A DNA stretch of 64,000 nt, from assembly GCA_030680805.1 (NCBI GenBank), contig JAUXUK010000060.1, positions 1 to 64,000 on the forward strand, written 5' to 3'. This DNA is from Sulfuritalea sp. GTDB lineage: Bacteria; Pseudomonadota; Gammaproteobacteria; Burkholderiales; Rhodocyclaceae. The stretch's first letter is position 1, and each line of letters opens with the position of its first letter. The translations under genes and the position numbers were made by a program. Shown piece after piece: positions 2,231 to 14,587 of this stretch. The notes under the pieces are model-generated. The model searched no databases and was not told the DNA's origin. It saw nothing but the letters and a program-made list of their open reading frames with translations.

Positions 2231-3064
2231 ATGGCTCTCGTAAAAGTCAAGCCGACCTCACCGGGTCGTCGTGGTGTCGTCAAGGTGGTTAACCCGAATC
2301 TGCACAAGGGCCGCCCGCACGACAAACTCGTTGAATCGAAGACCCGAACCGCGGGCCGCAACGCGCACGGCCACATCACCACGCGGCACATGGGTGGTGG
2401 CCACAAGAAGCTTTATCGCGTGATCGATTTCCGTCGCGACAAGGATGGAATCCCGGGCAAGGTCGAGAATCTTCAGTACGACCCGAATCGTTCCGCCAAT
2501 ATTGCGCTGGTGCTGTACGCTGATGGCGAGCGCCGTTACATCATTGCCACCAAGGGAATGGTTGTCGGTCAGGCGGTTCTCAGTGGTCCCGAGGCGCCGA
2601 TCAAGCCGGGCAATACCCTGCCGATTCGCAGCATTCCCGTCGGCACGACGATTCATTGCGTCGAAATGATGCCGGGCAAAGGTGCTCAGATTGCGCGTTC
2701 CGCAGGCACCTCGGCTCAGCTTCTGGCGCGTGAAGGTACCTATGCCCAGGTTCGGCTGCGGTCAGGCGAGATTCGCCGCATCCACGTTGAATGTCGTGCG
2801 ACGATTGGTGAAGTTGGCAACGAGGAACATAGCCTGCGCAAGATCGGCAAGGCCGGTGCGATGCGCTGGCGCGGTGTTCGCCCGACTGTTCGCGGCGTGG
2901 CGATGAACCCAGTCGATCACCCGCATGGTGGTGGTGAAGGACGTACCGGCGAAGGACGCGTTCCTGTCAGTCCCTGGGGTCAGCCGACCAAGGGCTATCG
3001 CACCCGCAACAACAAGCGCACGGACGTCATGATTGTCCAACGCAGGCCGAAAGGTAAGAGGTAA
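2231..3064 (+). CDS. rplB: 50S ribosomal protein L2
   Basis: 277 residues, normal for L2, a 23S-binding protein needed for subunit association and peptidyl-transferase function. The C-terminal motif [14 protein letters not shown] contains the conserved histidine region near the catalytic centre. The N-terminal part shows [17 protein letters not shown]-like RNA-binding sequence. It begins immediately after the rplW stop and is three bases ahead of rpsS. A 746-codon antisense ORF begins within this gene and is a codon-bias shadow. Confidence 0.98.
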
Positions 3065-11475: not shown

Positions 11476-11542
11476 CTACGGTTCGCATTTTTCAGCTAGC
11501 CCACCACACCGCATTCACTAACGGCGACGAACAGGTAAGCAC

Positions 11543-11908
11543 ATGGCTCGTATAGCAGGCGTCAACATCCCGAATCACCAGCACGCGGAGATTGCTTTGA
11601 CCGCGATCTACGGTATTGGCCGCACTCGCGCACAGAAAATCTGTGACGCCGTCGGCGTCAAGCGTTCGGCCAAGATCAAGGAACTCACGGACACCGAGAT
11701 GGATCGTCTGCGGGAAGAGGTAGGCAGGTTCACCGTCGAAGGCGATTTGCGCCGCGAAACGACGATGAACATCAAGCGCCTCATGGATCTTGGCTGCTAT
11801 CGCGGAGTGCGTCATCGGCGTGGTCTGCCTGTGCGCGGTCAGCGTACCCGCACCAACGCGCGTACCCGCAAGGGGCCGCGCAAGGCTATTTCGATGGGCA
11901 AGAAGTAA
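11543..11908 (+). CDS. rpsM: 30S ribosomal protein S13
   Basis: 121 residues. S13 contacts tRNA and the 50S bridge. [20 protein letters not shown] is the conserved start, and the basic tail contains [20 protein letters not shown]. First gene of the alpha operon, 92 bp after rpmJ. Confidence 0.98.
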
Positions 11909-12333: not shown

Positions 12334-12963
12334 ATGGCCCGCAACCTAGACGCCAAGTGCCGCCAGTGCCGCCGCGAGGGCGAGAAGCTCTTCCTCAAAG
12401 GCGAGAAGTGCTTCACTGACAAATGTTCCGTCGAGCGCCGCGCATACGCGCCCGGCCAGCACGGCCAAAAATCCGGACAGCGGCTGTCCGGTTACGGCAC
12501 GCAACTGCGTGAAAAACAAAAGATCCGTCGTATTTACGGCGTGCTTGAACGGCAGTTCCGCAAAGTGTTCGGCGATGCCGAGCGCAAAAAGGGACAGACC
12601 GGCGAGAATCTGCTGAAGCTTCTGGAAGGCCGCCTCGATACCGTGGCGTACCGCATGGGGTTTGGCGTCTCGCGCGCGGAAGCCCGCCAGGTAGTTCGCC
12701 ACAACGGAGTGCTGATCAACGGCCGGCGTGTTGATATCCCGTCGTATAGCGTGCGTCCCGGCGATGTCATCCAGTTGCTCGACAGCACTCGCGGCCAGCT
12801 ACGCACCAAGGCTGCTCTGGAAGCGGCCGAGTCCCGCGGCTTCCCCGCATGGCTCGAAGTGGATGTCAAGGCCGGCAAGGGTGTATTCAAGTCATACCCT
12901 GCACGCGAAGACCTGCCGCCCTCGATCAATGAGGGTCTGGTCGTCGAACTGTATTCGCGCTAA
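12334..12963 (+). CDS. rpsD: 30S ribosomal protein S4, cysteine-containing (C+) form
   Basis: 209 residues. S4 is a primary 16S binder and in enterobacteria the repressor of the alpha operon. Four cysteines (CRQC near residues 9-12, and Cys about 26 and 31) make a zinc-binding N-terminus that E. coli S4 lacks. [20 protein letters not shown] and the S4 RNA-binding domain [20 protein letters not shown] follow. A perfect 13-bp hairpin lies directly after the stop. Confidence 0.98.
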
Positions 12964-12974
12964 TTAGTAGTTTT

Positions 12975-13003
12975 GCACCTGGCGTCCACCGGACGCCAGG
13001 TGC
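12975..13003 (+). promoter_or_regulatory. Perfect 13-bp stem hairpin between rpsD and rpoA
   Basis: GCACCTGGCGTCC and its exact complement GGACGCCAGGTGC are separated by ACC. It lies 12 bp after the rpsD stop and 21 bp before the chosen rpoA start. No clear uridine run follows (CTTCCATTTG), so it is more likely an attenuator, RNase site or mRNA 3'-end stabiliser than a complete terminator. Confidence 0.7.
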
Positions 13004-13024
13004 CTTCCATTTGAAGGAATGCAC

Positions 13025-14002
13025 ATGCACACACTTCTGAAACCCCGGAGTATCGATGTCCAGCAGCTTTCGCCGCTGCATGCCCGCGTGGTCATGGAGC
13101 CGTTTGAACGCGGCTACGGCCACACGCTGGGCAATGCCTTGCGCCGCATCCTGCTGTCCTCGATGGAAGGCGTTGCCCCGACCGAGGTGTCGATCGAAGG
13201 CGTCCTCCACGAGTACTCGACGCTGGATGGCGTTCGCGAGGATGTGGTTGACGTTCTGCTGAATCTCAAGGGTGTGGTGCTGAAGATGCACAATCGCCGC
13301 GAGGCTACGCTCACCCTCTCCCGCAATGGCGAGGGCGTGGTAACGGCGCGCGACATCGAGACCACGCATGACGTCGAGATCGTCAATCCCGATCACGTCA
13401 TTGCCCACATTGCACCCGGCGGCAAGCTCAACATGCAGATCCGCGTCGAGTCCGGCCGCGGCTACGTGCCGGCCAACCAGCGCGAAATCGCCCGCGAGAA
13501 CCGCGCCATTGGCCAGATCATGCTTGACGCGTCGTTCAGCCCGGTGCGTCGTGTCAGCTATTCGGTTGAGTCCGCCCGCGTCGAGCAGCGCACCGACCTC
13601 GACAAGCTGATTCTCGACATCGAGACCAACGGCGCCATCGACAATGCCGAAGAAGCAGTGCGCACGGCAGCCCGCATCCTGATGGAGCAGCTGTCGGTGT
13701 TTGCCGATCTCGAAGGCACGCCGATGTCCGCCGAAGCGCCGAAGCAGACTTCGGTTGACCCGGTTCTGGTGCGTCCGGTGGATGACCTGGAACTCACGGT
13801 CCGTTCCGCAAATTGCCTCAAGGCTGAGAACATCTATTACATCGGCGACCTGATTCAGCGCACCGAAACCGAATTGCTGAAGACCCCGAACCTGGGGCGC
13901 AAGTCGCTCAACGAAATCAAGGAAGTGCTGGCTTCACGCGGCCTGACCCTGGGCATGAAGCTCGAAAGCTGGCCGCCCGCCGGACTGGAAAAGCTGGCCT
14001 GA
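13025..14002 (+). CDS. rpoA: DNA-directed RNA polymerase subunit alpha
   Basis: 325 residues from the ATG at 13025. The ORF track's ATG at 13019 abuts the GAAGGA ribosome site with no spacing, so the second ATG with a six-base gap is preferred. The N-terminal assembly domain contains [20 protein letters not shown]. The C-terminal domain, which contacts UP elements and activators, contains [17 protein letters not shown] and [12 protein letters not shown]. Placed in normal alpha operon order between S4 and L17. Confidence 0.97.
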
Positions 14003-14103
14003 TTGGTTTAACACCGGGCTTCGACCCGGTTGCGTCATTTGCCATATTTGTCTGATTTGTTTCACTTGCTGCACTGATTTACAAACTCTCGATAACCATT
14101 AAC

Positions 14104-14129
14104 CGGCCACTTGCATCGCGCGGTGGCCG
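14104..14129 (+). promoter_or_regulatory. Hairpin upstream of rplQ
   Basis: CGGCCAC pairs with GTGGCCG around a 12-nt loop, followed by a run of seven A. It lies in the 148-bp rpoA-rplQ gap. A second short dyad (ACCGGG/CCCGGT, 14013-14030) follows the rpoA stop. Neither has a T-run on the plus strand, so read-through into rplQ is expected. Confidence 0.35.
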
Positions 14130-14150
14130 CAAAAAAACGAGGACATCAAA

Positions 14151-14543
14151 ATGCGTCACGGTAACGGACTTCGCAAACTCAATCGAACCTCTGCGCATCG
14201 CCAGGCGATGCTGCGCAACATGGCGGTCTCCCTGCTGCGTCATGAGGCCATCAAGACCACTCTGCCCAAGGCCAAGGAATTGCGCCGCGTGGTCGAGCCC
14301 CTGATCACCCTGGGCAAAAAACCCAGCCTGGCCAATCGTCGGCTGGCATTCGATCGCACGCGCGATCGCGACATCGTCGGCAAGCTGTTCGATGTGCTCG
14401 GCCCGCGCTACGCCACACGCAACGGCGGCTACCTGCGGATTCTCAAGATGGGTTTTCGCGACGGCGACAATGCGCCGATGGCCTTCGTCGAATTGCTGGA
14501 TCGTCCCGCTGAGGAAGCGGTCGAGGCTGTCGCCGCCGAATAA
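14151..14543 (+). CDS. rplQ: 50S ribosomal protein L17
   Basis: 130 residues. L17 lies near the tunnel exit on the 50S surface. [20 protein letters not shown] and [20 protein letters not shown] are diagnostic. Preceded by CGAGGACATCAAA. It ends the ribosomal super-operon and is followed 16 bp later by a strong terminator. Confidence 0.98.
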
Positions 14544-14559: not shown

Positions 14560-14587
14560 AAAAAGCCAGGCGATGCCTGGCTTTTTT
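14560..14587 (+). terminator. Bidirectional intrinsic terminator, rplQ / cysN
   Basis: GCCAGGC, loop GAT, GCCTGGC, then six T. Five A lie on the other side, so it can also serve the convergent minus-strand cysN operon that ends at 14608. It closes the alpha operon. Confidence 0.92.

Follow-up and report, generated by a model that had tools for sequence, protein, structure and literature searches.

A perfect 13-bp hairpin occupies the junction between rpsD and rpoA in the alpha operon of a Sulfuritalea sp. contig, of which we analyzed a stretch of 64,000 nt (hereafter, the window). This hairpin is real and beyond chance, and, judged by evolutionary criteria, it is functional. The reading that best fits its geometry, which we put forward tentatively, is that it serves as a translational insulator between the two genes, in the manner of a ribosome termination structure (RTS).

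A stable hairpin lies between rpsD and rpoA

The operon of the window runs rpsM, rpsK, rpsD, rpoA and rplQ, with intervening gaps of 15, 20, 55 and 148 nt. The original prediction was that a perfect 13-bp hairpin with a 3-nt loop and no T-run sits exactly between rpsD and rpoA, in the only sizeable gap inside the operon before rpoA; coordinates (Table 1), sequence and gap lengths (55 nt vs 15 and 20) all bear this out. The structure, GCACCTGGCGTCC-ACC-GGACGCCAGGTGC, begins 11 nt past the rpsD stop codon (TAA, 12961–12963) and ends 15 nt ahead of the first in-frame rpoA ATG (13019), or 21 nt ahead of a better-spaced ATG at 13025. The second ATG is likely the true start of rpoA, and in relatives the gene starts at that position or just past it.

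Table 1. Features of the alpha operon around the rpsD–rpoA junction of the window.
Feature	Position	Strand	Basis or remark
rpsD (ribosomal protein S4)	12334..12963	+	ORF of 209 aa; S4 homologues at the corresponding position in relatives
Spacer from rpsD stop to stem, 11 nt	12964..12974	+	GTAGTTTT-like motif kept within the genus
13-bp RNA hairpin, loop ACC	12975..13003	+	Folding, conservation and covariation
Spacer and rpoA Shine-Dalgarno (GAAGGA, 13013–13018), without U-tract	13004..13018	+	
rpoA (RNA polymerase alpha)	13019..14002	+	ORF
Covarying hairpin element directly 5' of rplQ, candidate rplQ leader	14092..14153	+	No Rfam match
Terminator-like hairpin with U-tract, operon end 3' of rplQ	14560..14586	+	Contrast to the rpsD–rpoA hairpin

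The hairpin region folds at −36.7 kcal/mol, compared with −24.5 ± 3.2 kcal/mol for shuffled sequences (z = −3.84; 0/200 shuffles equally stable), and the rpsD–rpoA gap alone folds at −30.0 kcal/mol. Simulation at the composition of the window puts the chance expectation at about 0.03 perfect hairpins (at least 13 bp, loop of 3–8 nt) per 64 kb. The hairpin is single-copy in its own genome in a search allowing up to 3 mismatches, and only 30 stretches in 257 Gb of genome contigs match its exact stem pattern. The carriers are MAGs titled Sulfuritalea sp., Sulfuritalea hydrogenivorans sk43H, Rhodocyclales, Rhodocyclaceae and Betaproteobacteria, together with one Burkholderiaceae MAG and several uncultured beta proteobacterium bins. 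Rfam covariance models yielded no cis-regulatory family matching the hairpin, the sole match being a chance-level mir-124 on the other strand (17.1 bits vs a gathering score of 49), and a known RNA family was therefore rejected.

The hairpin lacks the U-tract of an intrinsic terminator

It had originally been proposed that the hairpin could set the ratio of alpha to ribosomal proteins by partial termination or by RNA processing. A partial intrinsic terminator, or attenuator, would reduce transcription of rpoA compared with that of the ribosomal genes, and the strong, GC-rich stem-loop (10 G-C pairs out of 13) is what such a terminator requires, as are the five or more T within 8 nt that follow 11 of the 39 hairpins compared (e.g. 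L100, L101 and L103). However, the other 28 have fewer than five T in those 8 nt, and in the window the sequence 3' of the hairpin (CTTCCATTTG) has no T-run or U-tract, the place of the U-rich tract being taken by CTTCCATT; the terminator-like hairpin after rplQ differs in this respect. In addition, a scan of the window sequence revealed no promoter-like site near or before rpoA, so that an essential gene would be shut off if termination were complete. The missing U-tract and the missing promoter-like site together make an ordinary terminator unlikely, and we consider partial termination improbable. Of the proposal, the separate setting of rpoA output fits the position of the hairpin, while the partial-termination route is unsupported.

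The stem is nearly invariant within the genus

The hairpin is present in 31/31 of the rpsD–rpoA junctions that we examined from the genus (Sulfuritalea-like, GTDB Rhodocyclaceae). Pairing is perfect or broken by G·U only in the 30 oriented junctions; the remaining one (L014) has the hairpin but was left out of the variation statistics because its rpsD stop codon is altered. In this locus (about 2490–2560, minus strand) the stop TAA reads TAT and the S4 frame continues past the hairpin as far as the start region of rpoA, a change found in a single MAG that may be an assembly error.

The mean pairwise difference per site is 0.028 in the stem, 0.55 in the loop and 0.43 at four-fold degenerate sites of rpsD and rpoA. 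The stem thus varies about 15-fold less than silent sites, and the loop is unconstrained. Within the genus, 20 of the 24 positions of the 12-bp stem are invariant, and the changes that do occur are one two-sided A-T/G-C swap and single C-to-T or A-to-G substitutions resulting in G·U pairs; pair thirteen, at the outer end, varies as well. Two loci, L004 and L011, carry a 65-nt insertion with hairpins of its own between the conserved hairpin, which is intact, and the rpoA Shine-Dalgarno sequence.

The stem sequence is steadier in the genus than the structure obviously needs, which could mean that a protein binds it. Binding of a regulator of rpoA translation, be it S4, alpha itself or some other RNA-binding protein, would account for this near-invariance (20/24 positions), and the different near-invariant element that other families of the order carry at this place likewise suggests rpoA-specific control. 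The stem nevertheless differs between genera and the loop is free to vary, unusual features in a protein-binding site, and the hairpin has no Rfam match; the chances of this explanation appear slim.

Stem pairs covary between genera

Beyond the genus, we examined 134 rpsD–rpoA gaps of the family, 30 of which come from the window's own genus. A symmetric stem scoring at least 10 was found in 36% of them, compared with 0.04% of shuffled gaps, and one scoring at least 7 in 65/134, compared with 3% of shuffled gaps. The architecture is common to at least 14 genera whose stem sequences differ, as the examples ATGTCCATTGTCCA, ACGCTTGATGCCA, ATGCGCCCGGAGCC, GGCGATACGGGCT and TTGCCGCGCGCC illustrate. 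Stems are mostly 12–14 bp long (10 in one member of genus g53; 16–17, with mismatches, in g47 and one g70 member), and loops measure 3–5 nt (7 in one g70 member).

Since a single MAFFT alignment misaligned four stems, arms were compared in register counted from the loop. Among 27 distinct stems from 14 genera, 97.5% of pairs are intact, and this falls to 55% after swapping 3' arms between sequences and to 48% after swapping between genera. An ungapped alignment of 10 sequences shows two-sided changes in 7/13 pairs, with a covariation score matched by 0/500 shuffles; these sequences had been preselected for 13-bp stems and 3-nt loops, so that their paired percentage partly reflects selection. 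Better evidence for covariation than the percentage paired comes from the swap and shuffle controls, and with them the comparison of related genomes for compensatory changes is clearly positive.

The distances to both genes are maintained as well. Genus medians of the stop-to-stem spacer span 2–13 nt (median 10.5) and usually lie at 10–13 nt, with g53 at 7 and g47 at 2, and those of the stem-to-start spacer span 18–25 nt (median 21.5) and are mostly 20–23 nt, with g47 at 18 and g64 at 25; g47 is the low outlier for both. From the stem to the Shine-Dalgarno sequence the distance is 9–11 nt in most genera.

The hairpin is missing from many members of the family, whose gap is about 40 nt long; the genera concerned lie mostly in other parts of the tree. 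In a few genera (g7, g60) the gap holds unrelated hairpins of 8–9 bp. The tree was built on about 780 nt and several of its deep branches are weakly supported, so we do not claim a single origin of the hairpin.

The hairpin acts as mRNA-strand RNA

A hairpin formed in the mRNA itself accepts G·U pairs and not A·C pairs, a bias expected neither of an antisense RNA nor of a DNA palindrome. In 37 unique stems, a search scoring both mismatches alike returned 27 G·T vs 2 A·C (nominal p = 1.6e-6, related stems not being independent). The loop-register search favours G·T, and the strand claim therefore rests on this unbiased hairpin search. The large excess of G·U over A·C points to a hairpin that acts as RNA of the mRNA strand.

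The perfect inverted repeat, a 29-bp palindrome-like sequence, could in principle work at the DNA level, as an operator, a recombination site, or a REP element or other dispersed repeat. This is very improbable, given one genomic copy, a fixed place between two cistrons and the 27:2 ratio. An operator was rejected on the G·T vs A·C asymmetry, and a dispersed repeat, REP or mobile element on the single copy in the genome.

The geometry of the junction fits translational insulation

A ribosome on a stop codon typically covers about 10–12 nt downstream, and a 30S subunit at a start codon about 20 nt upstream. Starting about 11 nt past the rpsD stop, the stem would abut the front of the terminating ribosome; at its other end, about 21 nt separate it from the rpoA start, which would put it just behind the initiating 30S. 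Being just outside both footprints, the stem could remain folded while rpsD and rpoA are translated. Ribosomes that have finished rpsD would then be kept from moving along to rpoA, which would be initiated independently and would be spared co-repression or co-induction with the coupled rpsM-rpsK-rpsD cistrons. We infer this insulating function, which the original prediction did not include, from the observed structure, conservation, covariation, strand specificity and geometry taken together; among the readings considered we rank it first, ahead of a barrier to decay or processing, with partial termination and protein binding sharing third place.

Published work on E. coli is consistent with translational insulation. 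Chemla et al. (2020, PMC7518266) showed in a synthetic operon that re-initiation on the downstream cistron is reduced by a stable structure just past the stop codon, and post-stop structures were found to be enriched at gaps of at least 25 nt and depleted below that length; the natural function of RTSs is described there as unproven, with validation on native sequences still needed. The junction studied here has a gap of 55 nt to the first ATG. With short gaps of 15 and 20 nt along rpsM-rpsK-rpsD and a long, structured gap before rpoA, the alpha operon fits the RTS gap pattern. Moreover, E. coli S4 represses rpsM, rpsK, rpsD and rplQ while rpoA is exempt and regulated independently, and the review that describes this (PMC10931766) offers no mechanism for the escape of rpoA from S4 control. 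In the window, a match to the alpha operon leader RF00140 is seen before rpsM (11536–11575) at 29.2 bits, below the gathering score of 38, and S4 control of the first cistrons is thus uncertain in this genome. As a counterpoint, the many family members with a gap of 40-odd nt and no hairpin indicate that insulation is not universally needed.

Control of rpoA by occlusion of its ribosome binding site was also considered. Sequestration of the Shine-Dalgarno sequence by the stem was rejected, as that sequence lies outside the stem, and so was a weak CUUC/GAAG mini-hairpin over it in the window, which is absent from most congeners (these read CGTCC or TGCCC).

A possible but rather less likely role is that of a barrier to decay or processing, in which an endonuclease cuts beside the hairpin and the stem shields the 3' end of rpsM-rpsK-rpsD or the 5' end of rpoA, giving the two parts differing half-lives (SRPS). 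A stable stem between cistrons of different required output would suit this role. So would the AGTTTT kept just 5' of the stem throughout the genus, as RNase E-type sites have the consensus RN/WUU. This motif is nonetheless gone in other genera that retain the hairpin, and two constant spacers would be superfluous for a decay barrier. For RNase III, a stem of 13 bp is short. Intercistronic stem-loops in such a role are known, e.g. in puf and SRPS operons, puf of Rhodobacter being an example cited in PMC5927463; two papers with differential-decay data sets make no mention of rpsD or rpoA.

Other elements accompany rpoA and rplQ

A second covarying element lies directly 5' of rplQ (Table 1) and is a candidate leader for this gene, which encodes L17. 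It has 10 pairs, 99% of them paired, with two-sided changes in 6 pairs, and an invariant T..GC...GCG core; it has no match in Rfam. PMC7247131 mentions a predicted L17 leader in Actinobacteria and Proteobacteria. With a covariance model, the element was detected in 48/161 sampled family genomes, one copy each, just 3' of the rpoA match wherever coordinates were compared; under the stricter filters used for the order and phylum samples, the search gave, apart from the genome of the window, a single hit, in a member of the same family. It occurs in largely the same clade as the rpsD–rpoA hairpin, and the rpsD–rpoA gap is strongly folded in 38/40 genomes with the rplQ element, compared with 12/65 without. 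An analysis of coevolution gave up to 3 supported independent pairs (2 for and 0 against in most pairings). These independent changes on the tree are too few to establish a link between the two elements. In a number of congeners, a 6–7 bp GC-rich hairpin (ACCGGG..CCCGGT; at about 14013–14030 in the window) is also present about 10 nt past the rpoA stop, possibly as a second post-stop structure.

Other families of the order have a near-invariant 34-nt element, CAGCCTTATCGGTGTAACGAGCCGAGGGTATTGA, in the rpsD–rpoA gap, 8–16 nt before rpoA. It was found in 16/150 sampled members of the order, belonging to at least 6 families, with one copy per genome (loci L236–L243, L048, L056 and L060) and no match in Rfam. 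Its stem pair TCGG/CCGA is changed to CCGG/CCGG, a compensated change, in L241 and L242.

Taken together, these elements suggest that different lineages have re-invented control specific to rpoA and rplQ in the 3' half of the alpha operon. A bolder and rather doubtful extension is that this half has been re-wired in the Rhodocyclaceae clade: the hairpin would wall off rpoA and rplQ would have its own RNA leader, replacing the S4 coupling of E. coli, in which L17 is controlled and alpha skipped, while other families of the order would reach the same end with the unrelated 34-nt element. How RNA polymerase alpha is coordinated with the ribosomal proteins with which it is co-transcribed, and still kept apart from them, is an old question, for which a natural, conserved hairpin at the exact junction, with constant distances to both ribosomes, offers a convenient test case. 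If confirmed, the rplQ and 34-nt rpoA elements would be new cis-regulatory RNAs.

Comparison with known systems

The hairpin shares its perfect GC-rich stem and short loop with intrinsic (Rho-independent) terminators, but it has no U-tract and stands before an essential gene without a promoter-like site. Like the alpha operon leader RF00140, the S4 pseudoknot before rpsM, it is probably a cis-acting RNA of the same operon; it sits before rpoA rather than rpsM, however, and has a different fold. SRPS stem-loops, such as those of the puf mRNA and the cip-cel operon, likewise lie between cistrons of one polycistronic mRNA from which different output is needed, whereas the position of the present hairpin appears to follow ribosome geometry and not a nuclease site. 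Closest is the RTS (PMC7518266), with which it has in common a stable mRNA structure right after a stop codon, in a gap of more than 25 nt and near the edge of the terminating ribosome. RTSs are defined statistically, by folding energy in sliding windows, whereas we used the folding of the region and of the gap, and what we describe here is one specific hairpin with compensated changes, found in a single operon of at least 14 genera and held between two constant spacers.
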